DNA of 64,000 nucleotides from Thermoproteota archaeon (lineage in GTDB: Archaea > Korarchaeota > Korarchaeia > Korarchaeales > Korarchaeaceae): NCBI GenBank assembly GCA_027491415.1, contig JAOZFH010000055.1, positions 1 to 64,000 of the forward strand. The letters are read 5' to 3'. Shown here piece by piece: positions 1 through 18,597 of this stretch. The notes under the pieces were generated by a model, which ran no database searches, had not been told where the DNA came from, and worked only from the letters and a program-made list of their open reading frames with translations. Each line of letters starts with the position of its first letter. Position 1 is the first letter of the stretch. A program made the position numbers and the translations under genes.

Positions 1-551
1 TAAAGCCAAAAGACAGAGTCGTCCGGAATGTTTCCAGATAAGTAGGATTTCGCAAGGCGGAGGAGGGCTGACTTGTTCCACGCCCTCAGCCCGGAAGTAA
101 CGTCGGTGACCTTCATCTTAGTCAACCATGTGACTACCGTAGATGAAAAAGCCCTTCCGGCCTGCTTGAGTATGGAGTCGTGATCATTGAAGTCTCCCTC
201 AACGTATCTTGAGCCTATTGCTATGTCTGCATTTCCGCGGAGAACCGGCTCTAGGAGCTTTGGAAGGTCTCTCGCCCTGTGTTGACCGTCGCCGTCAATC
301 TTCAGCAGAAAGTCGTACCCCTCCCTGATCGCTAAGAGGTAGCCCGCGAGAATCGCCATGGCTCCTCCCATGTGGAACGGTAGAGAGATTACCCTGGCCC
401 CCGCTTTACTTGCCAGAATCGGTGTGTCATCGCTCGAGCCGTCGTCCACCACCACAACGTCGTAGCCCCGGTTGAGGTCCAGAACATCTTCCACAACTTG
501 AGCTATGGTGGGCGCCTCGTTGTAGGCCGGGATCATCACTAGAACCTTCAT
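1..551 (-). CDS. Family 2 glycosyltransferase, 3' part cut by window edge
   Basis: The reading frame starts at ATG 551 and stays open to base 1, so only the first 183 residues are visible. The N-terminus MKVLVMIPAYNEAPTIAQVV is the classic GT-A nucleotide-sugar fold opening, followed by VVDDGSSDDT and then DGDGQH, the DxD-type metal and sugar-nucleotide motif, and SGLRAWNK. This matches the dolichyl-phosphate mannosyl/glucosyl transferase group, which transfers a sugar from a nucleotide donor to a lipid phosphate at the cytoplasmic membrane face. A GGTGTGATC ribosome-binding-like stretch precedes the ATG. It lies downstream of the UDP-GlcNAc 2-epimerase and belongs to the same glycan locus. 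Substrate unknown; family assignment is firm. Confidence 0.9.
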   Translation of the reverse strand, partial: MKVLVMIPAYNEAPTIAQVVEDVLDLNRGYDVVVVDDGSSDDTPILASKAGARVISLPFHMGGAMAILAGYLLAIREGYDFLLKIDGDGQHRARDLPKLLEPVLRGNADIAIGSRYVEGDFNDHDSILKQAGRAFSSTVVTWLTKMKVTDVTSGLRAWNKSALLRLAKSYLSGNIPDDSVFWL

Positions 552-859: not shown

Positions 860-1951
860 TCACATATGTCCAAATTCGTTCATTATTATGGAAGTAATTC
901 TTTCCGACGCGCGCCCATCACCGAGAATCCCAGGGGGCGGTCTCTGCGTAGCCCTTTTTTGCAAATCGAAGTAGGCCATAACGAGCCTGTCAACATCCAC
1001 ATCAACCAACTTTACCCATCCTGTTTGGACCAGCTCAATCCACTCCGTCCTATCCCTAAGGACTATGACTGGCTTGCCAAGAAGATATGCCTCCCTCTGA
1101 ACCCCTCCCGAGTCTGTCACCACAATACTGGAGCAATTCAGGAGGCCGACAAAGTCTATGTAATCTAAAGGTTTTGTTAGTATTAAATTTTCAAGACTCG
1201 TCAAGGTGTTCATTAAACCCAGGTTCTTCAATGCTCTAAAAGTTCTCGGGTGAACAGGAAATACTATTTTCGTAAACTTCGAAAGCTCTCTTATCCCGCT
1301 AACTACCTTCGCTAGGCGGTTCGGATTATCCACATTTTCAGCTCTGTGAACCGTAAAAACTAAATATCTTGAACATTCAAGGTCTAGTTCCTCAGTTATC
1401 TTAGAATTCTTTATTTCATCTATCCATTTATATAGTACATCAACATGCACATCACCTGTCAAAAATATTTTTCCTAGAACTCTCTCTTTTCTCAAATTAT
1501 TTTCGGACTGTGGCGTGGGCGCAAATAGAAACGTTGAAATGTGATCCGTTACCCTCCGGTTGATTTCTTCTTGCATTTTAATGTCAAAGGACCGCAAGCC
1601 TGCCTCTACGTGCGCCACGGGAATCCCTGCCTTAACAGCGGCGAGTGCACCCCCCATGGTCGAGTTGGTGTCTCCGTAAACGACAACTAAGTCAGGTTTG
1701 ATCGACATTAGGTGCGATTCGGCTCTCTTGATAAGCTCACCAAGCTGATAGCCTTGAGTGCCTGACCCTACACCAAGGTATATATCCGGGTCTCGGAGCT
1801 CAAGCCTATCGAAGAACGCCTGTGACATTTCATAGTCATAATGTTGTCCAGTATGAATTACTATGTGTTCGAATTTTTCATCAAAATAATCAATAACGGC
1901 AGCAAGCTTAACAAAATTGGGCCTCGCGCCCACGACGGAGGTAACGATCAT
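860..1951 (-). CDS. wecB: UDP-N-acetylglucosamine 2-epimerase (non-hydrolysing)
   Basis: A 363-residue protein of normal family length. VGARPNFVKL (residues 7-16) is the GT-B-like nucleotide site; GDTNSTMGG (93-101), HVEAGLRS (114-121), EEINRRVTDH (128-137), TVHRAEN (200-206), PVHPRT (232-237) and TDSGGVQREA (279-288) are the conserved epimerase motifs carrying the catalytic acids and histidine. The enzyme interconverts UDP-GlcNAc and UDP-ManNAc, a precursor of ManNAc or ManNAc-uronic acid in surface glycans. It sits between a GT2 and a GT4 gene on the same strand, which supports a glycan role. Product identity is firm; the next sugar-modifying step is not visible here. Confidence 0.95.
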   Translation of the reverse strand: MIVTSVVGARPNFVKLAAVIDYFDEKFEHIVIHTGQHYDYEMSQAFFDRLELRDPDIYLGVGSGTQGYQLGELIKRAESHLMSIKPDLVVVYGDTNSTMGGALAAVKAGIPVAHVEAGLRSFDIKMQEEINRRVTDHISTFLFAPTPQSENNLRKERVLGKIFLTGDVHVDVLYKWIDEIKNSKITEELDLECSRYLVFTVHRAENVDNPNRLAKVVSGIRELSKFTKIVFPVHPRTFRALKNLGLMNTLTSLENLILTKPLDYIDFVGLLNCSSIVVTDSGGVQREAYLLGKPVIVLRDRTEWIELVQTGWVKLVDVDVDRLVMAYFDLQKRATQRPPPGILGDGRASERITSIIMNEFGHM

Positions 1952-2125: not shown

Positions 2126-3250
2126 TCAGAATACTGCTAGGGCCTCTCTATATATGGCATCTAGATCCCTAAGAACCCTGTCCCATGAGAAATTCTTCTC
2201 CACCGCCAGCCGAGCAGACTCTCCAATCCTTTTCCTGAGGTTCGAATCTCGTAAGAGAATTGACAGTGCCTCAGCAAGTCTCAAGGGGTCCCCCGGTGGT
2301 ACGAGAAGCCCGTTCTTCCCATTGATCACCACCTCTCTAACGCCTGGAAGGCTCGACGCCACCACAGCCTTCCCTGCGGCCATCGCCTCCAACAGGGCCC
2401 TAGGCATCCCTTCACTAAGAGAGGGTAGGACGAATACCTCTGCCCTAGAGAGTATGCTTGGAATCCTTTCGTGGGGAACGGCATCGCGGACAGTTATAAG
2501 CCCCTCTAGGGCCTCCTCTCTGACCAGGTTCTCAATGAACCTCCTCCTCGGACCTCTCCCGACCAGCAGAAGTCTAAAATCCAGTCCTTTTTCATTCGAT
2601 AATATCTTAGCTGCCCGGATCAGCACCTCAAGCCCCTTCTCCTTAACAAACCGGCCGTACCACACCACCAGACCAGGTAATGGCCTTCCCCCTGAGGCGA
2701 ACATGGTTAAGTCCACCGGAACGGGGACGACCCTTATCTTCTCGGGACTCAGCGAGGCCAGTTTGGAGACTCGCTCTGCATCCGATCTGGTCAAGCATAT
2801 AACGAACTTTGCTCCACGCAGGATACGTCTCCCGAGGGTTTTGAGATATGCGGTCTGTGCCAGATCTACGAAAGCGCCCCGACGAACTCTGAATCCGTGC
2901 ACGGTAACTACGTACGGTATCCCCAAGCGTGATGCAGCCTTATAGGCTTGATAGCTAGTCAGGAAGAGGTGCGAGTGTACGTGCAGAATCGTGGGGCTAA
3001 TTAACTCGATGTACTCTCCCAGCCTAGGAATGTACGGATACTCTGTCACCCAGGGCCTCAGCCCCAAGTTGAAGCCAGGTAACCTCAAGCAGACTAAATT
3101 TTCTCCCAGCTGCTCCTTCTCAGGCTTTCTTACCTTTGGGCTCCACGCAACGAGGGTCACTTTATACCGGGCGGACTGCCTTTTGGAGAGTCCGAGAGCA
3201 AAGAATGGGTCGCCTACGGTGTCCCTGGGAGAAATATGACATAGGTGCAT
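2126..3250 (-). CDS. Family 4 (GT-B) glycosyltransferase
   Basis: About 374 residues from ATG 3250, giving the start MHLCHISPRDTVGDP; an upstream in-frame ATG at 3268 is possible but adds an atypical MMCTHV. The N-terminal Rossmann half contains LHVHSHLFL and YVVTVHGFR; the C-terminal half has the WYGRFVKEKGLEVLI strand-turn, LLLVGRGPRR, and the EX7E donor motif in SEGMPRALLEA. These mark a retaining GT4 enzyme that extends a lipid-linked glycan in the cytoplasm. It is convergent-free and co-directional with wecB and the GT2 gene, and divergent from the next GT at 3409. The sugar donor cannot be read from sequence. Confidence 0.9.
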   Translation of the reverse strand: MHLCHISPRDTVGDPFFALGLSKRQSARYKVTLVAWSPKVRKPEKEQLGENLVCLRLPGFNLGLRPWVTEYPYIPRLGEYIELISPTILHVHSHLFLTSYQAYKAASRLGIPYVVTVHGFRVRRGAFVDLAQTAYLKTLGRRILRGAKFVICLTRSDAERVSKLASLSPEKIRVVPVPVDLTMFASGGRPLPGLVVWYGRFVKEKGLEVLIRAAKILSNEKGLDFRLLLVGRGPRRRFIENLVREEALEGLITVRDAVPHERIPSILSRAEVFVLPSLSEGMPRALLEAMAAGKAVVASSLPGVREVVINGKNGLLVPPGDPLRLAEALSILLRDSNLRKRIGESARLAVEKNFSWDRVLRDLDAIYREALAVF

Positions 3251-3408
3251 AACGTGCGTGCACATCAAGTGACTGAGTATAGCGCGTCTTTCGCTTTATT
3301 TAGTTGGTCCATTTACGAGTCACGAAACGACATTAGGAGCAACCGAGGCAACCCCATGGGTGTGTAAACAGGAAATTGGGTCGTATTCACGATCGGAGGG
3401 CAGAGAAA

Positions 3409-4641
3409 ATGTCCCAGAAGGTCTGCTTCTTTACGGGCTTCGGGCCAGTCCCAAACAAGACGGCTGCCTGGAGGAGGGTGGGATACTGGGCGTGCCACCT
3501 AGCGAAGGAGGGGTACGATGTCGTGGTCATCTCTTCCATAGATGTAAAGGGAGAGGACGTGACGGTAGGCTCGAGGGAATTGAAAGAAAACCTTAAAATC
3601 TACAATACATGGATGCGAATTAATTCAAATTCTCTTCCGGCATATATATTCAATACATTATCCTCCTTTCTAGTAATCCCTCCAATATTTCTATTGGAGA
3701 GGCCGCGGGTGGCGATTTTATCGGTTCCCAGTAGGGAAGGGATCTTTGCTGCGTTCATTGGAGCGAAACTCGTGGGGGCTAAGATAGTTATAGACTACAG
3801 AGACGAGTGGGAGGAATATCTTATAACTCATAGTAAAAATAGGATAAAACGTGTCATATTTAGACTAGTTAAGATATTAACGTTTTATATCTACAAGCGT
3901 AGCAACATGGTCATCGCAGTGACTCCTTTAATTCAGGAGAAGCTCCACAAACTACTACCCAGTAATGAGGTTATTTTAATACAAAATGGGGCCGACACCT
4001 CCGTGTTTTACCCCAGGAGAAAAAGTGAAGTTCGGGCGTTACTGGGAGTCCGGCCCAACGGACTCGTTCTCGTTTACACTGGATTCATCGGCAAGTACTA
4101 CGATTTGGAAACAGTCATTTCAGCCATTTCTATCGCGAAAGCTAGGGGTGTCGAAACTTCCCTGCTGGTAGCAGGCTGGGGAGAGGATGCAGCACGCATT
4201 AGGGAATTAGCACAGAGGGCGGGTGTGGACCTAAGGTATTTTGGGCCTGTGGACGATGATGAGATGTTGGCTAAGATCATATCGTCTGGAGATGTGGGCA
4301 TCATCCCGTTTAGGGACGAGGAGCTCTGGAGCAGTGCCCTCACTACGAAGTTCTTCGAGTACGCAGCGTGCGGGCTTCCGGTAATCGCCCTAGCTAGGGA
4401 CCACTGGCTTCTGGCAAGAGTCATTAGAGAGAACGATGTCGGGCTGGTCGTACCGCCCGAGAGACCCTCGGCGCTCGCAGAGGCCATATGGCGACTCTCT
4501 AATGATCTCGACCTCGCTAGAGAGATGGGGGCAAGAGCCAGGAGGATGATTCTAAGGAGCTATAGCAGGGAGGCTTTGGCGAAGAAATTCCTTCAAAGTC
4601 TCGTCGCACGTGGGATTGTGGAGCCCCTCGAGCGGAGGTAA
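3409..4641 (+). CDS. Family 4 (GT-B) glycosyltransferase, WbuB-like
   Basis: The start is placed at ATG 3409 because a GGAGGG site lies about 9 bases upstream and the family N-terminus begins near KVCFFTGFGPVPNKTAAWRR; the longer frame from 3376 adds 11 unrelated residues. The 410-residue protein has the N-terminal acceptor half (YWACHLAKEGYDVVVIS), a central DYRDEWEEY segment, and the C-terminal donor half with YTGFIGKYYDLE, LLVAGWGED and TKFFEYAACGLPVIA. It probably adds a hexosamine or related sugar to a lipid-linked glycan. Its last 125 bases overlap the 3' end of the convergent membrane protein gene on the opposite strand. Confidence 0.88.
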   Translation: MSQKVCFFTGFGPVPNKTAAWRRVGYWACHLAKEGYDVVVISSIDVKGEDVTVGSRELKENLKIYNTWMRINSNSLPAYIFNTLSSFLVIPPIFLLERPRVAILSVPSREGIFAAFIGAKLVGAKIVIDYRDEWEEYLITHSKNRIKRVIFRLVKILTFYIYKRSNMVIAVTPLIQEKLHKLLPSNEVILIQNGADTSVFYPRRKSEVRALLGVRPNGLVLVYTGFIGKYYDLETVISAISIAKARGVETSLLVAGWGEDAARIRELAQRAGVDLRYFGPVDDDEMLAKIISSGDVGIIPFRDEELWSSALTTKFFEYAACGLPVIALARDHWLLARVIRENDVGLVVPPERPSALAEAIWRLSNDLDLAREMGARARRMILRSYSREALAKKFLQSLVARGIVEPLERR

Positions 4642-8729: not shown

Positions 8730-9161
8730 TTAGGATTCGGTTTTCACAGACCTAATCTTGATAGCTAGTCCCGAAGATAGGTCCCTGAAAAAGCCCGAGT
8801 GCCTTGCTAACATCTTTAGGTCTAATTTCCTGTCCCTCAGCTCATCGGGCATTACCCGTGGTATGCCCCCCACGATGGGATACCACCTCCCGCACTCTCT
8901 GCAAACCAGAATACCCTCTACTATCTGCCTTGCCTCACAGGACGCGCAATCTTCTGGTGAGGGGGTTGGGGTTCCCTGATCCTTGGCTCTCGCCCCCAAC
9001 TTCGTGTCAAATAGGGCGCAGTACCACTCGCATCTCCTCTCACTGGGCCCGCGCCTGCCTGAGTCCGAGAACCTCTCTGAAAACACGAACAGCCTGAGGG
9101 GAGTGTCCTTATGATACGGGCAAACAAGCCTATCTAGGAGACTTCTCCTCACTTCGCTCAC
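8730..9161 (-). CDS. Trm112-like zinc-ribbon protein
   Basis: 143 residues starting at GTG 9161. The ends of the protein match the Trm112 family: LLDRLVCPYHKDTPLRLF at the N-terminus and GILVCRECGRWYPIVGGIPR followed by VMPDELR near residue 110. The middle is enlarged and has an extra CASC pair, for an extended zinc ribbon. In eukaryotes and archaea Trm112 binds and activates class I methyltransferases. Here the start codon lies inside the last 32 bases of the upstream methyltransferase gene, so the two are translationally coupled, and an obligate methyltransferase-activator pair is likely. The substrate (glycan, lipid or RNA) cannot be told from sequence. Confidence 0.75.
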   Translation of the reverse strand: MSEVRRSLLDRLVCPYHKDTPLRLFVFSERFSDSGRRGPSERRCEWYCALFDTKLGARAKDQGTPTPSPEDCASCEARQIVEGILVCRECGRWYPIVGGIPRVMPDELRDRKLDLKMLARHSGFFRDLSSGLAIKIRSVKTES

Positions 9162-9819
9162 CCTGCTTGACGAATTTCATCACCAGCCAGTAACCCAGCA
9201 TGACTCGACCTAGCACGTTCTGTATGAGAAGCCAGAGCCTGACCGGTAGGATCCTAAAGGGTCCCCACAGCGTAATATAAGGCAGGTTGACAATGTGCAG
9301 CCTAGATACCTGCCTATATCCGTCGGGCAGGAGGCCCGTGAGGTGTTTTTCGTCCATGGAGAGAAGGTGTCCGTATCTGGGCGTAGGCCTTCCACAATGG
9401 ACGCACTTATAGTAAACGATCTTCTCCTTATATGGAATAGATATTAGGATTGTTCCGCCTTTCGTGAGTACCCTGTCAGCCTCTGCTACGGAGGCGAGCT
9501 GACTCTCCTTGGGCATATGTTCTAGCAACTCAAGCATAGAGACCGATTCGAACGAGGAGTTCCTGAACGGTAGCATCTCAGCACTGGCCTGAACAAGCTC
9601 AACCTGCCAGCCAAACCTCTCTCTGGCCGTCTCAAGGGCTTTGTCGTCTATGTCTACGGCTACCACGTATTCCACAACTTCTGATATCGCCGATGTCATG
9701 TCACCCTCTCCGCACCCGATGTCAAGGAGAGAGCGTGGACGTGGTTCTTTGAGTAGGAGCTTAATTACTTCGGCTCTCCGCCTCTGTTTTTCTTTCTCAT
9801 AAGATTCAATGGAGAGCAA
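9130..9819 (-). CDS. Class I SAM-dependent methyltransferase (Methyltransf_11 type)
   Basis: 229 residues from TTG 9819, preceded by a GGAGGGTGACT site. Motif I is SLLDIGCGEGDMTSAIS (residues 31-47), the acidic post-I residue is in VVAVDIDDKAL, and motif IV lies in FESVSMLELLEHMPKE. Residues 150-170 contain YYKCVHCGRPTPRYGHL, a small Cys pair, and a hydrophobic C-terminal stretch (LLIQNVLGRVMLGYWLVMKF) may sit on the membrane. The gene overlaps the Trm112-like gene by 32 bases. Its position in the glycan locus suggests O-methylation of a sugar, but a lipid or RNA substrate is not excluded. Confidence 0.85.
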   Translation of the reverse strand: MLSIESYEKEKQRRRAEVIKLLLKEPRPRSLLDIGCGEGDMTSAISEVVEYVVAVDIDDKALETARERFGWQVELVQASAEMLPFRNSSFESVSMLELLEHMPKESQLASVAEADRVLTKGGTILISIPYKEKIVYYKCVHCGRPTPRYGHLLSMDEKHLTGLLPDGYRQVSRLHIVNLPYITLWGPFRILPVRLWLLIQNVLGRVMLGYWLVMKFVKQGERSEEKSPR

Positions 9820-10145
9820 TCCAAGTCACCCTCCCCAAGCCAATTGCCTGGGTCAGGGGGAAACTCCTAAAAAGGAGCCCAGCGCTATCCTATTGCTGCA
9901 GCGAGAGGCTCACGATTTTTCTTTTCCCCACATTCGATTAGCATTTTAAGTAATTTATATTGGGTAGTAATGTATTAGTGAATTAACGTTATTCGTGACT
10001 TCAAAAAGTATAAAAATCAGCTGGCATAGTTCATCTGGTAGAACTCGTATAGATAGAAATATGCTTAAGAAGGTAGCGCCCGTGTGCCTTGTCTTGGCAG
10101 AATAAGGGTAACAAGTTGTGCGTTCTGGAGAAAGGTGAGCTGTAG
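9820..10145. other. AT-rich intergenic region with promoter and tRNA D-arm-like motif
   Basis: No credible protein gene. A short perfect inverted repeat CTCCTaaaaAGGAG lies near 9866-9879. A strong TATA-like AGTATAAAAATC at about 10007-10018 faces the sulfotransferase gene. Bases 10020-10044 (GCTGGCA, TA, then GTTC-ATCTGGTA-GAAC) mimic the acceptor strand and D-arm of a tRNA, but no matching anticodon loop, T-arm or 3' acceptor strand follows. Confidence 0.5.
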
Positions 10146-11162
10146 TTGCCGGTAATCGACCGTAATGTGAGCGCGATTAAAAGATTGTTTGCGAGAGAGT
10201 TTTGGTGGATAGTGTATACCATAAGCAGGCTAATAGCTGGCTCTGGAAGCGAGGCAGACGCTATAGTTATCTCCGGATCTTCCAGATCCGGCACGACGTG
10301 GCTAATGGAGATTTTAGAAACTTTACGGGGATATAGGTCTATATTTGAGCCCCTAAATAGAGAGTGGTACAAAGAAGTAAGAAATATACACCTAGAAGGG
10401 TACCCCCGTCCTTACATTCCACCGGATGTAGAGAACCCCGATCTAGAAAATTACTTAGGTAGGGTCTTCCAAGGTAAAGTATCCGGACATGTGGAGCTGA
10501 GGCCACGCCTAAAAACCATTTTCAAGTTCCTAACTTCACCTAAAGTGGTTGTCAAATTTATAAGAGCAAATAGACTATTGCCGTGGATTTATAATAGATT
10601 TAGAGTGAGAGCTATTTATCTAATGATAAGGCACCCCTGCGCAACTATAGCATCTCAGTTAAATATTGGTTGGCGGATCGATCCTCGAGTTTGGACTCCA
10701 GTTGTGAAAGAGCTCTTTAACCATGACCCGGATGTGAGGGATGAGCTGCTTAGAATCATAAAGAGACCTGAGGACCCGGTAGAGCCGTGGGCACTGATGT
10801 GGGCTCTTGATTACTACATTCCTCTTTCTATGCCGAGACCACACCCGTGGTACACAGTGGTTTACGAGAAACTCCTGCTAGACGGTGAGTCGGAGCTAGG
10901 GAACATCTTTCGTTGGATTGGTGAAACTCCCTCAGATGCAGCTTACGCTAGGCTCGCGAGACCCAGCTCTGCGGCCAACAAATCAGTTCGGAAGGTCGGG
11001 GAGATCAATCCATCCGATCAACTGATTAAATGGAAGCGCTCATTAAGCTTAGATCAAATAAAAAGAATTCTTAGAATAACGGAGCTAGTTGGCCTTACTT
11101 TTTACACAGAAAGCGAGGAACCTGACTACGTAGAGTTAGCCAAGTGGAGTAGAGTGGGTTAG
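10146..11162 (+). CDS. PAPS-dependent sulfotransferase
   Basis: 338 residues from TTG 10146; the start is supported by an AAAGGTGAGC ribosome site a few bases upstream. The 5'-phosphosulfate loop is SGSSRSGTTWLMEIL (43-57) and the 3'-phosphate site is IRHPCATIAS (161-170), followed by a family-typical C-terminal part with VYEKLL and WKRSLSLDQIKRIL. It transfers sulfate from 3'-phosphoadenosine 5'-phosphosulfate to a hydroxyl or amine, most likely on a glycan given the neighbourhood. There is no membrane anchor or signal peptide, so it should act in the cytoplasm, before export. It converges on the glucuronyl C5-epimerase-like gene 64 bases away, and the PAPS-producing genes lie 2-7 kb downstream. 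GC content is clearly lower than in those genes. Confidence 0.88.
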   Translation: MPVIDRNVSAIKRLFAREFWWIVYTISRLIAGSGSEADAIVISGSSRSGTTWLMEILETLRGYRSIFEPLNREWYKEVRNIHLEGYPRPYIPPDVENPDLENYLGRVFQGKVSGHVELRPRLKTIFKFLTSPKVVVKFIRANRLLPWIYNRFRVRAIYLMIRHPCATIASQLNIGWRIDPRVWTPVVKELFNHDPDVRDELLRIIKRPEDPVEPWALMWALDYYIPLSMPRPHPWYTVVYEKLLLDGESELGNIFRWIGETPSDAAYARLARPSSAANKSVRKVGEINPSDQLIKWKRSLSLDQIKRILRITELVGLTFYTESEEPDYVELAKWSRVG

Positions 11163-11226
11163 GCATCCAGAATTAAAATACGCGGTGGTGATGTAATAAA
11201 AAGTCTACTGAATTTTTGGCCAGCCC

Positions 11227-12156
11227 CTAATGATAAAAAATGTAAGATTCCCACCTTCTGTATGTTTCCAGAAAATAGGGGTCTCCTGTCATTTGATAGA
11301 GCCGCAGAAGCAAGAGCACATGGAGAAAGTGGTACCTAGATGCAGATCTTTTGCCAAGCAAACTATAATATGTCCAGTTACCCGAATCATACAAATTGAG
11401 ATAGGCCCGTACAGTATCGAGCCCCTCGGCGTACAGCCGCTCTGCATCTGGATCCTTTGTAACGACATAAAAGTCGTGTATACCAATCAAGGCAAATATG
11501 AAACCATTAAGTACGTGTGGCTTTTTCTCACAAACGTACTCTAGATAAAAGGGGCGACCCTGTTCATCTAGCAGCGTGACACCCCCCTCCTCGACACCCC
11601 TGCGAAAAGCCTCAAGAGCCAGCCTTGCTGAACTTAAGTATGTATCATTGTGCGTGACGATGTATGCTCTCACAAGGGCAGAGATTGCCTGGCCCTGAGC
11701 CATGCCGGATATCCAGGGGGCTCTGCACCCGTACCTAGGAAAATCAAAATCGTAGACCCAAACGCCCAAGCCATCCTCCACTACCTGATTAGTTACTAAC
11801 CAATTTACATGTCTTAAAAATCGTTCTAGGTAAGTAGTGTTTCCCGTCAGGACAAAATCGTCGAAGTTATAGAGAGCGAACTCTGCTATGAACACTGGGT
11901 TGTATTGAACACCGATATCGCCTCCATAATCTACGACAACTATCCCCTCCTCATCAAATGATTTCCAGTCTACGAAATTTACGGCATAAATTAGGTAAAG
12001 CCACTCGAACTCTTTGCCCTCCCACTGGGACTGTAGGGTTAATCCAGCATGGCTGGAGCGCATACCCAAACCATATCCGGCCAGAAAAGTGAGTAAAATT
12101 AAGACGGCAATTAAGAATATTGTGTTAACTCTTAGCCGCCATTGCGCCCTCGTCAT
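11227..12156 (-). CDS. Membrane-anchored D-glucuronyl C5-epimerase-like protein
   Basis: 309 residues. One N-terminal membrane helix (about 12-29) is followed by an alpha/alpha-barrel domain with the signatures of the C-terminal domain of D-glucuronyl C5-epimerase: GMAQGQAISALVRAY, VLNGFIFALIGIHDFY, and near the end SRYHFLHVLLLLRLYQMTGD followed by a RRWESY-type close. In animals and some bacteria this enzyme turns glucuronate into iduronate within heparosan or related polymers. The N-in topology would put the domain outside the cell. A TATA-like ACTTAAATTTTT about 28 bases before ATG 12156 suggests a leaderless transcript. Placement beside a sulfotransferase supports the glycosaminoglycan-like reading; activity itself is inferred. 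Confidence 0.8.
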   Translation of the reverse strand: MTRAQWRLRVNTIFLIAVLILLTFLAGYGLGMRSSHAGLTLQSQWEGKEFEWLYLIYAVNFVDWKSFDEEGIVVVDYGGDIGVQYNPVFIAEFALYNFDDFVLTGNTTYLERFLRHVNWLVTNQVVEDGLGVWVYDFDFPRYGCRAPWISGMAQGQAISALVRAYIVTHNDTYLSSARLALEAFRRGVEEGGVTLLDEQGRPFYLEYVCEKKPHVLNGFIFALIGIHDFYVVTKDPDAERLYAEGLDTVRAYLNLYDSGNWTYYSLLGKRSASRYHFLHVLLLLRLYQMTGDPYFLETYRRWESYIFYH

Positions 12157-12700
12157 AACGACGGTTTAGTTTCCAAGAAAAATTTAAGTCCGTACTCGCG
12201 CTTGATGCACGCCAACTAAATCCATTTTCCAAGTCTAACCTTTTAAATTTCTGTCATAGAAGACAAACCTCGATTTTTCGAGAAATTTTGAGGAGAAACT
12301 CCGCTCCGGGACCTTTGAGTTGTGATTAGTTGAAGGGCGTTTTGTGCGCGCTCCCTGCAAGAGGCCACAGGCGGTCAACGAGCGACTTCACGGCTTGTGA
12401 TGTGGCTAGGAATTGCGCTATCCGGGCCTGCGTGTATGCTGCCGGTCTGCTGTGAATATAAACATATCCTATGGCTTTATGACCCTTTGAGCTCAAAGTC
12501 TACTCTTCCATGCTTTAAAACGTAAAACCCACGATCTTAGGACTCTCCGGCAGAGAAAAATCCGAGGTCTATTGGGAGATGGCACCGTACCTGAAAAAAG
12601 ATCAAGAACTAGGTCCTCCTACCTCTGCTCCAAGCAAGACTGAGCGAACCGTAGGAGAGATATTAATATTTAATTAATTACATATCATTACAACACCCTC
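12157..12700. other. AT-rich spacer at the compositional boundary
   Basis: About 540 bases without a gene I can support on either strand. It separates the AT-richer glycan genes from the GC-rich sulfate-activation cassette. The left end holds the epimerase promoter and the right end that of the RHH gene at 12701. I see no tRNA, terminal repeats or integrase remnant in it. Confidence 0.55.
12669..12677 (+). promoter_or_regulatory. TATA box of the RHH-sat-DHH-AlkP-APS kinase operon
   Basis: TTTAATTAA in a run of A/T, centred about 28 bases before GTG 12701. With no ribosome site before that GTG, the first gene is probably translated from a leaderless mRNA. Confidence 0.7.
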
Positions 12701-12919
12701 GTGCCCAAGAGACGCTACACGACGATCTCCATCCCTATCCCGCTCTACGAGAGGGTGAAGAAGATGATTGAGGGCACTGGCTTCTCTTCGGTCAGCGACT
12801 ACGTCACCTACGTGCTGAGAGAGCTCGTCGCGTCGTACGAGGAGTCGAAGCTCGACTTCACCAGAGAGGACGAGGAGCGCATCAAGCGCAGGCTCAGGGC
12901 CCTCGGCTATCTGGACTGA
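12701..12919 (+). CDS. Small ribbon-helix-helix protein, first gene of PAPS cassette
   Basis: 72 residues from GTG 12701. The N-terminal strand TTISIPIPLYERVKKMI and helix FSSVSDYVTYVLRELV form a ribbon-helix-helix DNA-binding fold, followed by a charged linker and a C-terminal tail IKRRLRALGYLD. The protein at 17145 has the same arrangement and nearly the same tail, IKERLRSLGYL, so the two bracket the sulfate-activation genes. The sat gene starts 17 bases after this stop, so they are cotranscribed. A DNA-binding autoregulator of the operon is likely; alternatively it is a small partner of the pathway enzymes, since the tail also resembles C-termini seen in AlkP-superfamily proteins. Confidence 0.8.
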   Translation: MPKRRYTTISIPIPLYERVKKMIEGTGFSSVSDYVTYVLRELVASYEESKLDFTREDEERIKRRLRALGYLD

Positions 12920-12922
12920 GCC

Positions 12923-12932
12923 GGAGGTGATC
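12923..12932 (+). promoter_or_regulatory. Perfect ribosome binding site of sat
   Basis: GGAGGTGATC is fully complementary to the archaeal 16S rRNA 3' end and sits 4-5 bases before GTG 12937, fixing that start. Confidence 0.85.
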
Positions 12933-12936
12933 TGGC

Positions 12937-14085
12937 GTGGTGTCCAGGCCGCACGGCGGCAGGCTGGTAAACAGGGTGGCCTCCGACTCCAGGAGAGAGA
13001 AGATACTCGCTGAAGCAGCCGAACTCCCCCAGATACCGATAAGCGTGGAGAAGGCAATTGAGGCCGAGAACATCGCCAGGGGGGTCTACAGCCCCCTGGA
13101 GGGGTTCATGCTGAGCGAGGACTTCGAGTCCTGCCTCACCAGGATGAGGCTGGCGAGCGACGTTCCCTGGACCCTCCCGGTAGTCCTGGACGTGGAGGAG
13201 GGCAGCCTGGTCGACATCTCTGAGGGCGACGAGGTCCTCCTGACCCTCGACGGCTCTCCAACAGCCTTGATGGAGGTTGAGGAGATCTACAGGTACGACA
13301 AGAGGCGGACCGCCGTCTCGGTGTTCGGCACCGACAGCCCAGAGCATCCCGGAGTCCGCCGAACCCTGAAGATGGGCGACCTCCTGCTGGGCGGCAGGAT
13401 AACGCTAGTGGGCTCCGTGCCGAACCCCTACGAGAGGTACACCCTCTGGCCCATTGAGACCCGCGTGCTGTTCAAGGAGAAGGGCTGGAAGACCGTCGTC
13501 GGCTTTCAGACCAGGAACGCCCCGCACCGGGGCCACGAAGAGCTTCAGAAGACTGCCCTGGCCTTCGTCGACGGCGTGTTCATCAACCCCGTCATAGGGA
13601 GGAAGAAGCCCGGGGACTTCAGGGACGATGTGATCCTGGAGGCCTACAGGGCCCTCATCCGGCACTACTACCCGAGGGACACCGCCGTGCTCGCGATCCT
13701 CAGGTACGAGATGAGGTACGCCGGCCCGAGGGAGGCTGTGCACCACGCGATCATGAGGAAGAACTTCGGGTGCACCCACTTCATCGTCGGGAGGGACCAC
13801 GCGGGAGTCGGCAACTTCTACCCGCCCTACGCCGCCCAGGAGATATTCAGGGAGTTCCCCGACCTCGGGGTCACGCCGCTCTTCTTCAGGGAGTTCTTCT
13901 ACTGCAGGAGGTGCGGCGGCCTAGCCAACGAGAAGACATGTCCCCACCCAGAGTCCGACCGGGTGAGGTTCAGCGGCACGAAGATCCGCGAGCTTATAGA
14001 GAGGGGAGAGGTCCCGCCGCCGGAGGTCATGAGGCCCGAGGTGGCGGAGGTGATCCTGAGCTTCGAGGACCCCTTCGTCAGGTGA
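12937..14085 (+). CDS. sat: Sulfate adenylyltransferase (ATP sulfurylase)
   Basis: 382 residues, usual length for the monofunctional archaeal and bacterial enzyme. An N-terminal PUA-like domain is followed by the catalytic Rossmann domain with QTRNAPHRGHEEL (around 191-203, the QxRNxxHxxH ATP site), then GRDHAGVGNFYPPYAAQ (about 285-301) and a C-terminal CRRCGG...CPH cluster that probably binds zinc, as in thermophilic homologues. It makes adenosine 5'-phosphosulfate from ATP and sulfate, or runs in reverse in sulfur oxidisers. An APS kinase in the same operon and no APS or sulfite reductase in the window argue for assimilation towards PAPS. Confidence 0.95.
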   Translation: MVSRPHGGRLVNRVASDSRREKILAEAAELPQIPISVEKAIEAENIARGVYSPLEGFMLSEDFESCLTRMRLASDVPWTLPVVLDVEEGSLVDISEGDEVLLTLDGSPTALMEVEEIYRYDKRRTAVSVFGTDSPEHPGVRRTLKMGDLLLGGRITLVGSVPNPYERYTLWPIETRVLFKEKGWKTVVGFQTRNAPHRGHEELQKTALAFVDGVFINPVIGRKKPGDFRDDVILEAYRALIRHYYPRDTAVLAILRYEMRYAGPREAVHHAIMRKNFGCTHFIVGRDHAGVGNFYPPYAAQEIFREFPDLGVTPLFFREFFYCRRCGGLANEKTCPHPESDRVRFSGTKIRELIERGEVPPPEVMRPEVAEVILSFEDPFVR

Positions 14086-14097
14086 GGAGGGAGGGCG

Positions 14098-15132
14098 ATG
14101 GATGTGAGGCTGCCGGAGCCAGACGAGCTCGGGGACACGCTCGTCCTGCACCACTGGGACGCCGACGGCGTGGCGAGCGCGAGCCTGATTCTCGACTACC
14201 TCGGGGACTACGCCGAGCTCTACGTTCCGCCGCTGGGATTCTACTGGCTCGACTCCCAGGCGGCCAACGAAATACGGGACCTGGGGACGTTCGACACGCT
14301 GATGGTGCTCGACATGGCGCTTCCCGTAGAGTCCATAGAGAGAGCCGCCTCCGCGGCCGGGGCCGGCAGGGTGGTGCTGGTGGATCACCACGTGAGGCCG
14401 AGGGAGCGCTACCCGGCCTCCTGGGTCCCCCTGGTCGACGTAAGGCAGCCATCCGCGAGCTGGCACCTGACGCAGCTGCTGGGAGTTCAGCCTGACCTTC
14501 GATCGATCCTGGGAATTGCCGGCGACCTGGGCCCCACGCTCCAGTCTCACCCAGTCTACCCCCAGGTGATAGAGGTCCTGGAGTCTCTGGGAATTGGTGT
14601 AGTGGAGCTCGAGAGGCTGGCCGAGCTTATCGACGCCAACTACAGGGTCGGAGACAGGGAAGGCGTGAGGGACGCGGTCTTCGTGCTCAGCAGGGGACAC
14701 AGGGATCCGAGGTCGCTCCTCGATCTGAAGAAGTGGGTAATAAGGCACAGATCCGCCGAGGCCGAGGTCGAGAGGGTCGTGAGGGAGGCCAGCGTGGAGG
14801 ACTTCGGCAGCGTCGTCTACGTGGAGTTCGAGTCCCCTCACCTCCTGATCTCCACCGTGGGGAGGAGGTTCGCCTGGTCGAGAGAGGGCGTTGCCGTGCT
14901 CGTGCTCAACTCCCGGTGGAGGAGGGGGTACGCTCAAGTCTACTCAAGGGTCCACGGGCTCGACCTAGACCTCACGACCCTGGCCGAGATGGCCAGGGCC
15001 CGTGGCTACAGGGCCGGTGGGAAGCGGGAGGCCGTCGGCGTCATCCTGCCCGAGCTGGAGGCGAGGGAATTCGTCCGGCGCGCCCTCGACTGGCTGATGT
15101 CGGCCGCTCGGGAAGGGAAAGGAGGTGAGTGA
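14098..15132 (+). CDS. DHH/DHHA1-family phosphoesterase, candidate PAP phosphatase
   Basis: 344 residues. The DHH domain motifs are HHWDADGVAS (residues 18-27), VLDMAL and VDHHVRP (about 98-104); the C-terminal DHHA1 domain ends with RGYRAGGKREAVGVIL, where GGK stands in for the usual GGH. DHH proteins of the RecJ/NrnA group cleave nucleotide phosphates, and NrnA-type members dephosphorylate 3'-phosphoadenosine 5'-phosphate. Being between ATP sulfurylase and APS kinase, with gaps of 12 bases or fewer, a role in removing PAP left by sulfotransferases is attractive. That substrate is inference; an oligonucleotide or nanoRNA substrate remains possible. Confidence 0.8.
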   Translation: MDVRLPEPDELGDTLVLHHWDADGVASASLILDYLGDYAELYVPPLGFYWLDSQAANEIRDLGTFDTLMVLDMALPVESIERAASAAGAGRVVLVDHHVRPRERYPASWVPLVDVRQPSASWHLTQLLGVQPDLRSILGIAGDLGPTLQSHPVYPQVIEVLESLGIGVVELERLAELIDANYRVGDREGVRDAVFVLSRGHRDPRSLLDLKKWVIRHRSAEAEVERVVREASVEDFGSVVYVEFESPHLLISTVGRRFAWSREGVAVLVLNSRWRRGYAQVYSRVHGLDLDLTTLAEMARARGYRAGGKREAVGVILPELEAREFVRRALDWLMSAAREGKGGE

Positions 15133-15133
15133 G

Positions 15134-16522
15134 TTGGCAGGAGAGAGGGTCATGGTCATAGGGCTGGACTCGGCGCCGCCGTCGCTGGCGTTCGAGAGGT
15201 TCCTGCCCAAGATGCCGAACCTTTCCGAGCTCCTCGACGGGGCCAGGTACGGCCCCTTGAGGAGCTGCCACCCGCCTATAACCGTGCCTGCCTGGGCCGT
15301 GATGGCCACGAGCCTCACTCCGGGCGAGCTGGGGATGTACGGCTTCAGGCACAGGAAGCCCGGCGAGTACAGGGAGTACTACCTTGTGACCTCGAGGAAC
15401 CTGACGAGGCCAGCGGTGTGGGATCACGCCGCCAGGGAGGGGAAGAAAGCCTTGCTGATAGCCTTCCCGCCCTCCTACCCGCCCCTCAAGGTTCAGGGGT
15501 GGGTGATCAGCGACTTCCACACCCCCTCGACGGCCAAGAACTACACCCACCCGCCGTGGCTCAGGCTGGAGGTCGAGAGGGTCGCGGGAGGCCCCTTCAC
15601 GCACGACGTGGAGTTCAGGGTTGAAGACCGCGGACCGCTGGTCGAGAGGCTCTTCGAGATGACCAGTCAGCACCTCCGGGTCGCCGAGCACCTGGCGAGG
15701 ACCAAGAGGTGGGACCTCATGTGGTACGTCGAGATCGGCCTGGACAGGCTCCACCACGCGTTCTGGAAGTTCTTCGACCCCAGCCACCCGAGGCACGTCC
15801 CGGACAGCGAGTTCGCCGACGTGGCCGAGCGCTACTACCGCCTCCTGGACGAGGGGATAGGTAGACTCGTTCAGGCCGCCAAGGACGCCTCAATACTCGT
15901 CGTCTCGGACCACGGGGCGAAGGCGATGACCGGCGCCTTCGCGATCAACGAGTGGCTGGCGGACAACGGCTACCTGGCCCTGGAGGAGAGGCCCACGGAG
16001 CAGACGGGCCTCGCGAAGGCGAAGGTGGACTGGGACAGGACCGTTGCCTGGGGGTGGGGCGGCTACTACTCCAGGATCTTCGTGAACCTCAGGGGGAGGG
16101 AGCCACGGGGCAGGGTGAGCCCGGAGGACTTCGAGTCCACCCTGGCCCAGCTGGTGGACGACCTGAGGCGAGTCCGGGTTCCTGGGGGCGGGAGCCTCGG
16201 CGTAGAGGCCCACAGGCCGGCCGAGATCTACCCAGAGGTCAGGGGGGACGCGCCGGACCTCATGGTGTACTTCGGGGACCTGAGCTGGCGCGCCGCGGGC
16301 ACGATGGGCCACGGCAGGTGGTTCCTCCCCGAGAACGACACCGGCCCGGACGACGCGGTCCACGACTGGGACGGGATCTACCTGATTCGCGACCCGGAGG
16401 GGAGGGTGGAACCTGGAGAGCTTGGCGCCACGATCTACGACGTGGCGCCCACGATCCTGTCCCTGATGGGGTTGGGGATACCGGATGGGCTGAGAGGAGA
16501 ACCCCTCCTAGACGTGAGCTGA
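15134..16522 (+). CDS. AlkP-superfamily type I phosphodiesterase/nucleotide pyrophosphatase
   Basis: About 462 residues. I choose TTG 15134 because the GGAGGTGA at 15121-15128 lies 5 bases before it, the same spacing as for sat; GTG 15125 would lie inside that site. Motifs: MVIGLDSAPPS (first metal aspartate), CHPPITVPAWAVM (catalytic threonine), GLDRLHHAFWKFF, VVSDHGAK (metal DH pair) and MGHGRWF near the end. There is no signal peptide, so it is cytosolic. Members hydrolyse phosphodiesters, pyrophosphates or sulfate and phosphonate esters; inside this cassette it may act on APS/PAPS or a nucleotide sugar, which the sequence cannot settle. Confidence 0.85.
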   Translation: MAGERVMVIGLDSAPPSLAFERFLPKMPNLSELLDGARYGPLRSCHPPITVPAWAVMATSLTPGELGMYGFRHRKPGEYREYYLVTSRNLTRPAVWDHAAREGKKALLIAFPPSYPPLKVQGWVISDFHTPSTAKNYTHPPWLRLEVERVAGGPFTHDVEFRVEDRGPLVERLFEMTSQHLRVAEHLARTKRWDLMWYVEIGLDRLHHAFWKFFDPSHPRHVPDSEFADVAERYYRLLDEGIGRLVQAAKDASILVVSDHGAKAMTGAFAINEWLADNGYLALEERPTEQTGLAKAKVDWDRTVAWGWGGYYSRIFVNLRGREPRGRVSPEDFESTLAQLVDDLRRVRVPGGGSLGVEAHRPAEIYPEVRGDAPDLMVYFGDLSWRAAGTMGHGRWFLPENDTGPDDAVHDWDGIYLIRDPEGRVEPGELGATIYDVAPTILSLMGLGIPDGLRGEPLLDVS

Positions 16523-16537
16523 GGAGGTGCCTGGAGC

Positions 16538-17098
16538 ATGGCGGGAACAGTCGGGCGGTCGGGGAGGGGGTTCGTGATCTGGCTGACCGGACTCCCGGCC
16601 GCCGGGAAGACCACGCTCGCGAGGGTCCTGGCCAGGAGGCTCAGGGAGATGGGCTGGCGCGTCGAGACGCTCGACGGCGACGAGGTCAGGAGGTGGCTCA
16701 GCCCGGAGGCCGGGTTCAGCAGGGAGGACAGGGAGCGACACCTGAAGAGGGTGGCTCACGTCTCCAGGCTCCTGGCGAGGAACGGCGTCGCGGTCGTCGC
16801 GTCCTTCGTGTCACCCTACAGGAGGGTCAGGGAGGAGGTCAGGAAAATCGTCGAGGGGGAGGGGCTGAAGTTCGTGGAGGTCTACGTTAGGTGCTCCGTG
16901 GAGACCGCCATGAGAAGGGATCCCAAGGGCCTCTACAGGAGGGCGCTCAGGGGCGAGATACAGAACATGACGGGAGTTCAGGACGCCTACGAGGAGCCGG
17001 AGAACCCAGAGGTGATCGTCGACTCGGAGAGGATGAGCCCGGAGGAGGAGGCGGAGGAGGTCTTAGCCGCGCTCAGGAGGCTGGGAATCTCCGCCTGA
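16538..17098 (+). CDS. cysC: Adenylylsulfate kinase (APS kinase)
   Basis: 186 residues, normal length. Walker A is WLTGLPAAGKTTL (15-27), followed by TLDGDEVRRWL, HVSRLLARNG, the FVSPYRRVR APS-binding segment, and the lid KGLYRRALRGEI followed by TGVQDAYEEPENPEV. It phosphorylates adenylylsulfate at the 3' hydroxyl to give PAPS. A GAGGAGGTG ribosome site 8 bases upstream sets ATG 16538. Last enzyme of the cassette; together with sat it completes PAPS synthesis, the donor for the sulfotransferase at 10146. Confidence 0.95.
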   Translation: MAGTVGRSGRGFVIWLTGLPAAGKTTLARVLARRLREMGWRVETLDGDEVRRWLSPEAGFSREDRERHLKRVAHVSRLLARNGVAVVASFVSPYRRVREEVRKIVEGEGLKFVEVYVRCSVETAMRRDPKGLYRRALRGEIQNMTGVQDAYEEPENPEVIVDSERMSPEEEAEEVLAALRRLGISA

Positions 17099-17144
17099 GC
17101 GCCGGACCAACCTCTTTAAGTGCGCGGGCGGGGGGTGGCGAGAG

Positions 17145-17366
17145 GTGAGCCGAGTGGAGGGCGAGAAGGTGACGCTGGAGATCTCAAAGGAACTCTACGA
17201 GAGGGCCAAGAAGTGGGTGGAGAGCACGTCAGACTTCTCCTCCGTGGAGGAGCTCATAGAGTTCCTGCTCGGGGAGGTCCTCTCTGAGGAGTCCGGGGAG
17301 CAGGTCTACTCCCCCGAGGAAGAAGAGGAGATCAAGGAGAGGCTCAGGAGCTTGGGGTATCTGTGA
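17145..17366 (+). CDS. Second small RHH protein, paralogue of the one at 12701
   Basis: 73 residues from GTG 17145; GTG 17154, 5 bases after a GAGGTGA site, is an equally good start and would give 70 residues. The strand KVTLEISKELYERAKKWV and helix FSSVEELIEFLLGEVL form an RHH fold and the tail IKERLRSLGYL repeats that of the first RHH protein. A TATA-like CTCTTTAAG at about 17112-17120 could drive it separately from the PAPS operon. Likely a DNA-binding regulator of the cassette or of the flippase that converges on it. Confidence 0.75.
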   Translation: MSRVEGEKVTLEISKELYERAKKWVESTSDFSSVEELIEFLLGEVLSEESGEQVYSPEEEEEIKERLRSLGYL

Positions 17367-17388
17367 GCCCCTCGGAGCCGGGGTGACC

Positions 17389-18597
17389 TCAGCCGAGCCC
17401 CTCCGCGGGTTCCCGTCCCGGCCTCGCCCTGTCGACCAGCCTGGCGAGGATCGCGGCCGAGGACCTGTAGATCACGAGGGAGGCGGCGAGGCCAGCCACC
17501 CCTGCTACCCCTCCCAGGAGCACGATCGAGGCGGCGAGGATCGACATCGCCACCAGGTTCACGGCCAGCACGCGAATCGGCCTCTCCTCGCTCAGCTTGC
17601 CGGCGGCCCATATGCTGAAGGCGGCTCCGGGGACGACCGCCAGGGAGGCTATCTGGGCGGCGGTGGCGCTCACGGGGTAGAACTTGGGGAACAGGAGTTC
17701 TATCGCGACGGGCGACAGGGCCGCCCCCGCCGCGGCGGCGAGCGTCGAGATCCCCATCCCGATCAGCTCCGCCTTTCGGGTTCGGCGGCCGGACGACTTC
17801 TCGGGGAGCAGATAGTTCCTGAGGCTGGTCGGGACGACGCCGAGGGCCGCGTAGAACTGGAAGGCCAGCTGGTAGTACCCGAGCGTCTCGTCCCCATAGA
17901 GGCCGCCGATGAGGACCTTGTCGAACTTCATCACCGCCGAGGACGTCATGGCCATCGCCAGCGCCGCGAGCGAGAACTTGATGTGGGTCCTCACCGAGGT
18001 GAGGCCCCTCCTCGCCTCCCTGAGCTCGCGGAGGATCCAGGCGGAGGAGACGAGGTTGGCCAGGGCGAAGCCTAGGAGAGCGCCGTCTACCCCGAGCGCC
18101 GGGACTGCCGCGAACATCCACGCCAGCATCCCGAGCTTGCTCGACACCTGCAGGAGGGCGTACCCCCTGTAGTCCCTCCTACCGAGCCTCTCGCTGGCTG
18201 CGATCATGTAGAGGGAGTACCCAAGCGTGATGAGCGGCAGGGTCGGGTGTAGGACCACGAGGGGGAGTCCCAGGGCCAATCCAGCGGCGGCAGCGGTCAG
18301 AGCGGCCCCTGAGGCAATGTGCCTGTCTCCCTTCGGGAGGTAGGCCTGGAGAGTGGCTGGCATCCCGAAGGCCGCAACGCTGGAGGCGAGGATGGCGATG
18401 GAGGTAAGGTAGTTGACTCTCCCGTAATTCGAGACCGTCAGGAGCTTTGCGAGCAAAAACCACGTCAGCGCGCCGAGTACGACGGCCGAGGAGTTCCCCG
18501 CCGTTACGAGGATCAGCCCCCTCTGTCTCCGTATCCCCCTAGCGAAGCCCCTGATCTGGGCCGGGATGAGTTCTGGAAGTTCCAAGGCCCCCATCAC
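17389..18597 (-). CDS. Wzx-like polysaccharide flippase
   Basis: 402 residues with about 12 hydrophobic segments and the start pattern of the polysaccharide-export branch of the MOP/MATE superfamily: VTAGNSSAVVLGALTWFL, then LLTVSNYGRVNYLTSIAIL, and mid-protein KFDKVLIGGLYGDETLGYYQ, the signature of O-antigen flippases. It would move a lipid-linked, possibly sulfated, oligosaccharide across the membrane. It is convergent with the sulfate-activation operon and is the only exporter of the glycan region. The protein is somewhat shorter than many Wzx (420-480). Confidence 0.85.
   Translation of the reverse strand: MMGALELPELIPAQIRGFARGIRRQRGLILVTAGNSSAVVLGALTWFLLAKLLTVSNYGRVNYLTSIAILASSVAAFGMPATLQAYLPKGDRHIASGAALTAAAAGLALGLPLVVLHPTLPLITLGYSLYMIAASERLGRRDYRGYALLQVSSKLGMLAWMFAAVPALGVDGALLGFALANLVSSAWILRELREARRGLTSVRTHIKFSLAALAMAMTSSAVMKFDKVLIGGLYGDETLGYYQLAFQFYAALGVVPTSLRNYLLPEKSSGRRTRKAELIGMGISTLAAAAGAALSPVAIELLFPKFYPVSATAAQIASLAVVPGAAFSIWAAGKLSEERPIRVLAVNLVAMSILAASIVLLGGVAGVAGLAASLVIYRSSAAILARLVDRARPGREPAEGLG

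Follow-up and report, generated by a model that had tools for sequence, protein, structure and literature searches.

A GLCE-type uronyl C5-epimerase next to a PAPS-type sulfotransferase and a PAPS operon in an archaeal genome

Archaeal glycans with C5-epimerised and sulfated uronic acids are known from the N-glycan pathway Agl30/Agl31/Agl32 of Halobacterium salinarum (PMC11980604, PMC13308652). Sulfated iduronate in archaea is thus not new (PMC13308652, PMC11980604), the sulfated iduronate glycans of Halobacterium being known since 1986 (Wieland et al., as cited in PMC13308652). The sulfotransferases of this organism, Agl30/31, are members of the alkaline phosphatase superfamily (PMC11980604). 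Its epimerase Agl32 reportedly does without the catalytic residues of the animal glucuronyl C5-epimerase GLCE and modifies the glycan while this is still lipid-linked, ahead of export (PMC13308652, PMC11980604); sulfation comes after epimerisation (PMC13308652). A recent study comparing Agl32, the sole archaeal uronyl C5-epimerase it knows, with the animal enzymes finds it unlike GLCE (PMC13308652). Here we describe a different combination, found in bases 1-64000 (hereafter the window) of a 71,952-base contig from a 1.78-Mb archaeal metagenome-assembled genome (MAG; 63 contigs, 96% complete). Unlike in Halobacterium, the pair consists of a GLCE-type epimerase (11227-12156) and a sulfotransferase (10146-11162) of the type that uses 3'-phosphoadenosine 5'-phosphosulfate (PAPS), and it lies close to a PAPS operon. 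It is likely that the product is a sulfated uronic-acid surface glycan, and we give about an even chance to the reading that an acquired glycan island and a resident PAPS operon together make a sulfated, lipid-linked uronate glycan that is epimerised after export.

The occurrence of the GLCE-type enzyme family in microbes is not new either. Prokaryotic members of its Pfam family (C5-epim_C, PF06662) appear in public records under the name 'D-glucuronyl C5-epimerase family protein', and activity on glucuronic acid (GlcA) has been described for a bacterial one (as cited in PMC4432689). The epimerase of Bermanella marisrubri is, as far as the citing papers describe it, a GLCE-like microbial member (Raedts et al. 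2013, cited in PMC13308652, PMC4432689); it is likened to the window epimerase by that description only, and its activity on GlcA has been shown, whereas the window epimerase is known from sequence and a model. The literature searched yielded no archaeal PF06662 member to which a definite role had been assigned; the homologue survey of Raedts et al. may list archaeal ones.

The window epimerase matches PF06662 with 178.6 bits (E 1e-52, cut-off 23.3), and a sequence search of the PDB retrieves animal GLCE (E 2e-27). The human residues E499, Y500, N510, Y560 and Y578, listed as catalytic in GLCE (PMC13308652), correspond to E206, Y207, N217, Y264 and Y275, so that five of five are kept; among 59 aligned sequences Y500, N510 and Y560 are kept in 59, Y578 in 58 (one gap) and E499 in 53. 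When an AlphaFold2 model built from 27 sequences (mean pLDDT 89.9) was searched with Foldseek, ranks 1-8 were all animal GLCE (4pxq/6i01/6hzz; E 1.6e-13 to 5.6e-13, root-mean-square deviation 1.5-2.4 Å), with 32-34% identity over about 212 columns. The original prediction had proposed a GLCE-like protein at this position, and both the structure search and the conserved catalytic tyrosines bear this out. The model comprises an anchor and an alpha-helical domain. With the animal enzyme (PF06662; PDB 4PXQ, 6HZZ, 6I01) the window protein shares the alpha-helical catalytic domain, the five catalytic residues and, by prediction, a lumenal or extracytoplasmic membrane-anchored placement; unlike it, it has only 309 aa and its model lacks the beta-hairpin (dimerisation) and beta-sandwich domains, so that it is, as modelled, a GLCE-type catalytic domain and not a full GLCE. 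An AlgE/AlgG-type mannuronan C5-epimerase was rejected as a candidate, as this would need a right-handed beta-helix and the predicted structure is an alpha-helical barrel.

The N-terminus of the epimerase has a positively charged stretch followed by a single strong hydrophobic helix, and an anchor, signal peptide or lipobox is present in most relatives, the nearest bacterial ones being lipoprotein-like. For these reasons the catalytic domain is predicted to lie outside the cytoplasm. In some euryarchaeal MAGs (L062:379-2769; L061:3-1742; L124) a polytopic membrane protein (PTPS_related/DUF6541) ends in the epimerase as its C-terminal domain, an arrangement that fits an extracytoplasmic site of action.

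Other arrangements were seen among the relatives. The epimerases of one archaeal genus carry a fused polysaccharide deacetylase domain (PF01522; L107 and L109, and by the length of the open reading frame (ORF) and sequence also L112 and L115), and in another genome (G290, L134:197-1901) a DUF2334/deacetylase-like gene adjoins the epimerase gene. In heparan synthesis N-deacetylation comes before epimerisation. In five genomes of one genus, g3 (G012:C52, G013:C16, G014:C19, G015:C22, G016:C6), a gene of some 560 codons that encodes a PAPS_reduct (PF01507) domain lies roughly 1 kb from the epimerase gene.

The sulfotransferase ORF falls under the Pfam cut-offs (PF13469 24.1 bits, cut-off 27; PF00685 20.6 bits, cut-off 22), and a PDB sequence search gave no significant match. 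Across six sequences, however, the 5'-phosphosulfate loop (GxxRSGTTW; G44..R47 S48 G49 T51 W52) and the 3'-phosphate motif (RHP..S; R162 H163 P164..S170) are invariant, and a model made from the six (pLDDT 79) has human TPST2/TPST1 and other PAPS sulfotransferases as best matches. Motifs and modelled fold agree in indicating a divergent PAPS-type sulfotransferase, in which no transmembrane (TM) helix was predicted. Relatives are found in three genomes of another archaeal family (f10; 42-44% identity) and in a fourth genome (30%), and roseobacter plasmids carry relatives at 28-30% identity, the two inspected being polysaccharide clusters. None was found in the other genomes of the host phylum (29 genomes, own included) or in the viral contigs searched.

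All genes named in the original prediction were recovered where it had placed them, by ORF and profile matches. The glycan island and the PAPS operon read as follows.

1..551, reverse strand: GT2 glycosyltransferase, cut by the contig end (PF00535 79.6 bits; under the cut-off for the AglJ and PpgS models)
860..1951, reverse strand: non-hydrolysing UDP-GlcNAc 2-epimerase, wecB (equivalog TIGR00236 318 bits, cut-off 210)
2126..3268, reverse strand: GT4 glycosyltransferase (PF00534 136 bits)
3376..4641, forward strand: GT4 glycosyltransferase (PF13692 63 bits)
9130..9819, reverse strand: methyltransferase of the island (PF08241 72.9 bits)
10146..11162, forward strand: putative PAPS-type sulfotransferase, 338 aa, no TM helix (PF13469/PF00685 under cut-off; motifs; model fold)
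11227..12156, reverse strand: GLCE-type uronyl C5-epimerase, 309 aa, N-terminal membrane anchor (PF06662 178.6 bits; residues; AlphaFold2 model)
12937..14085, forward strand: ATP sulfurylase, sat (PF01747 313.6 bits; NCBIfam sopT above cut-off)
14098..15132, forward strand: DHH-family phosphoesterase in the PAPS operon (PF01368 28.8 bits; a relative stands in the sat-DHH-PDE-apsK operon of locus L141)
15125..16522, forward strand: PF01663 phosphodiesterase-like protein (PDE), steady apsK neighbour (144.6 bits; order sat-PDE-apsK kept in relatives)
16538..17098, forward strand: adenosine 5'-phosphosulfate (APS) kinase, apsK (PF01583 197.7 bits; apsK equivalog domain)
17389..18597, reverse strand: MOP/Wzx-type flippase, weak match (PF01943 28.1 bits vs cut-off 28.2; PF13440 26.5 vs 23)

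The sulfotransferase and epimerase genes are convergent with 64 bases between them, and sat starts 780 bases beyond the epimerase. GC content is 44-55% from base 1 to about 12.7 kb and about 65% over the remaining window, and the step falls between the epimerase and the PAPS operon (GC 62-68%). The low-GC block, which is interrupted at base 1 by the contig end, holds the cut GT2, wecB, the two GT4s, a 1368-aa membrane protein, a Trm112-like protein, the methyltransferase, the sulfotransferase and the epimerase, while the sat-DHH-PDE-apsK operon and the weak flippase match both lie in the high-GC part. A promoter and terminator scan of 9800-13000 gave hits no more numerous than in shuffles, and a search for insertion-marking repeats at 9000-13500 gave just chance-like ones.

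A common ancestry of the window epimerase with the epimerases of its own phylum is rejected (approximately unbiased (AU) test, p 6.6e-6); its nearest tree rows are bacterial (Sediminispirochaeta, Bipolaricaulota) together with one archaeon of another family. In a genome of the same genus (G001) the PAPS operon is present, with proteins 85-94% identical, and the epimerase and sulfotransferase were not found. Judged by the GC step, the AU test and this absence, the island looks horizontally acquired beside a resident PAPS operon. Among the bacterial relatives, a Bipolaricaulota MAG (L058:9962-11431) and a 'Sediminispirochaeta' MAG (L059:2145-3614) have almost the same epimerase, in which a long insertion separates the positions of Y560 and Y578; the likeness reflects either a recent transfer or a binning error.

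The order sat-PDE-apsK is conserved in the host family, and GT4s adjoin it in several cases. No PAPS reductase domain (PF01507) was found in this genome (G000) or in its congener G001, whereas 13 of the 17 family genomes searched have one, and PAPS in this genus is for that reason probably used for sulfation. Every archaeal genome with a sulfotransferase relative also has APS kinase (five of the five others, one of which, G310, has just a sulfotransferase fragment with a stop), and the original prediction had named relatives without PAPS genes as the finding that would speak against it; this is weak support, as genus-mates carry APS kinase too. In another family, a cluster (L141, G325) contains the sulfotransferase relative with a GT2, GalU, an AglM-type UDP-glucose dehydrogenase, a GT4, a strong Wzx, TauE and sat-DHH-PDE-apsK, which by its gene content independently supports linking this sulfotransferase type and the PAPS module with a glycan that contains uronate and is exported by Wzx. 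As a guess, the DHH protein (14098..15132) removes 3'-phosphoadenosine 5'-phosphate. The PF01663 protein belongs to the alkaline phosphatase superfamily and is a near-constant partner of archaeal apsK over several families (window 15125-16522; L085, L087, L088, L089, L090, L141, L153, L154). By analogy with Agl30/31, proteins of this kind may contribute to sulfation in cases in which a PAPS-type sulfotransferase is not found.

The genes at hand suggest an aminouronate as the sugar concerned. Two nucleotide-sugar dehydrogenases were found in the genome. As archaeal UDP-ManNAc dehydrogenase the complete one reaches 380 bits, vs 210 as AglM; for the truncated one, a G001 protein of 94% identity scores 292 vs 157. 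For comparison, the UDP-glucose dehydrogenases of archaeal families f10 and f6 score 468-519 bits as AglM. None of these scores attains the equivalog cut-offs, so that the assignment is a tendency and not proof. No AglM-type enzyme was found in this fragmented, 96% complete genome. Bacterial Wzx/Wzy capsule operons with PF06662 resemble the system described here in that the epimerase (42-43% identity in L058, 34% in L100) lies among glycosyltransferases, wecB and a UDP-ManNAc dehydrogenase-like enzyme. In the Bipolaricaulota operon (L058) the 43%-identical epimerase is surrounded by this dehydrogenase, a hexapeptide acetyltransferase-like protein, DegT, wecB, Wzx, Wzy and GT4s, and the cluster on a Priestia plasmid (L100) has DegT, an acetyltransferase, wecB and again the dehydrogenase. 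Unlike at the window locus, no sulfotransferase or PAPS genes were seen in either cluster, and the Bipolaricaulota genome has no sulfotransferase relative. On account of wecB, the dehydrogenases and these bacterial clusters, conversion of an N-acetylated mannuronate to an L-guluronate-type sugar appears at least as likely as conversion of glucuronate to iduronate. Such chemistry has been suggested for the Vibrio exopolysaccharide VPS, which contains N-acetyl-L-gulosaminuronic acid (L-GulNAcA), proposed to arise from its D-manno counterpart (D-ManNAcA) through C5 inversion; there the epimerase was not identified and the structure has no reported sulfate (PMC3901696).

In the scheme we propose, GT4s inside the cell would build a lipid-linked glycan containing a uronic acid, most likely N-acetylated mannuronate made via wecB and the UDP-ManNAc dehydrogenase. 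The sulfotransferase would sulfate the glycan inside with PAPS from sat-DHH-PDE-apsK, and the flippase would transfer it outside, where the anchored epimerase would act on the assembled chain, inverting its uronate at C5 (from D-manno to L-gulo or, should the uronate be glucuronate, from D-gluco to L-ido) by taking the C5 proton and returning a proton from the opposite side, as GLCE does. The final carrier may be an N-glycan, via the AglB homologue on contig C36, or a free polysaccharide. Since PAPS is cytosolic and the epimerase is predicted outside, we infer that sulfation precedes epimerisation. In animals, 2-O-sulfation of iduronate comes after epimerisation, opposite to the order proposed here, and the Halobacterium order is likewise the reverse of it (PMC13308652). 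It is also possible, if on balance doubtful, that the locus exemplifies a second archaeal route to C5-epimerised uronates, in which extracytoplasmic GLCE-type enzymes act after translocation, here joined by a PAPS-type sulfotransferase to give a sulfated GulNAcA-type or iduronate glycan with sulfation first.

Several points weigh against the acquired island and resident operon making one such glycan. The flippase match is weak, no Wzy was seen in the island, and the UDP-ManNAc assignment of the dehydrogenases is only a tendency. A UDP-glucose dehydrogenase could be missing from the assembly, given a MAG in 63 contigs and an island cut at base 1, and we know of no report of a GLCE-type enzyme acting on ManNAcA. 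Moreover, the epimerase and sulfotransferase are adjacent in this genome only; the conserved neighbourhood that the original prediction hoped to see in related genomes is not there, and the pair is not conserved. PF06662 is present (E <= 1e-10) in 57 of 393 sampled archaeal genomes and an intact sulfotransferase in five, and three have both (Fisher p 0.023, although one genus accounts for two of them). Outside the present genome, a distance of at least 260 kb separates the two genes in both remaining cases. The epimerase shows no association with APS kinase in the 31 genomes tested (p 0.71), and the convergent window genes are not co-transcribed. These observations would agree with the two enzymes acting on different glycans, having come to lie together by chance in a variable island that gathers glycan genes. 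We nevertheless regard this as unlikely, as the two genes lie side by side with similarly low GC in one glycan island and both protein types are elsewhere found in polysaccharide clusters.

Heparan-like chemistry, in which the epimerase makes iduronate in a glucuronate chain and the sulfotransferase acts on the same polymer, is suggested by the full set of GLCE catalytic residues, by the bacterial PF06662 member that, as cited in PMC4432689, converts GlcA to iduronate, and by the AglM-type dehydrogenase clustered with the sulfotransferase relative in L141. That cluster is without an epimerase, however, and with wecB and UDP-ManNAc dehydrogenase-like genes in place of an AglM-type enzyme, and sulfation set ahead of epimerisation by the predicted topology, we find heparan-like chemistry rather improbable. 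A heparan-type GlcA-GlcNAc copolymerase and an N-deacetylase/N-sulfotransferase are absent among the annotated window genes, the genome not having been searched for them. Of the polymer first envisaged, the sulfated uronic-acid surface glycan stands as likely, whereas iduronate and a 'heparan/dermatan-like' nature lack support, the pairing being unconserved, a UDP-glucuronate supply not seen in the fragmented genome, the sugar genes suggesting ManNAc-type uronates and the predicted reaction order reversed. That sat and apsK serve sulfate assimilation, unrelated to the adjacent sulfotransferase, would agree with the operon lying beyond the GC step and being conserved in relatives without a PF13469 sulfotransferase; it is very unlikely in this genus, where no PAPS reductase domain was detected although most of the family has one, and where relatives have glycosyltransferases beside the operon and, in another family, the sulfotransferase relative adjoins the same operon type. 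It is scarcely credible that the epimerase is another alpha/alpha-barrel enzyme (a GH76-like hydrolase, a lyase or an AGE-type epimerase); the original prediction had named a better alignment to such a barrel (glucanase, lyase) as what would speak against it. GH76 and cellobiose 2-epimerases do come second in structural matching, but with E-values no better than 5e-7, deviations near 4-7 Å and roughly 10-17% identity they align less well than GLCE, and fold and invariant GLCE residues led us to reject such identities.

The animal GLCE fold with the full catalytic residues thus occurs in about one in seven of the sampled archaeal genomes, mostly in proteins predicted to be extracellular. To these the window adds a GLCE-type enzyme whose gene has those of a PAPS-type sulfotransferase and of PAPS synthesis as neighbours, the genus having no detectable PAPS reductase. 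If the proposed route holds, this combination of animal-type enzymes and its reaction order would, within the literature searched, be new to animals, bacteria and Halobacterium. It is conceivable that a small enzyme of thermophile type might yield a robust epimerase for heparin-type synthesis.

Two further island genes deserve mention. A Trm112-like protein (PF03966; window 8730-9161) is encoded immediately downstream of the island methyltransferase. The 1368-aa membrane protein (window 4517-8623) is without any Pfam match and has ten TM helices, a large extra domain and a final TM helix. A comparison with the membrane domain that is joined to the epimerase in L062 revealed no relation, and the protein is 28% identical to one encoded near the PAPS operon of a same-genus genome (L085:399-4610).

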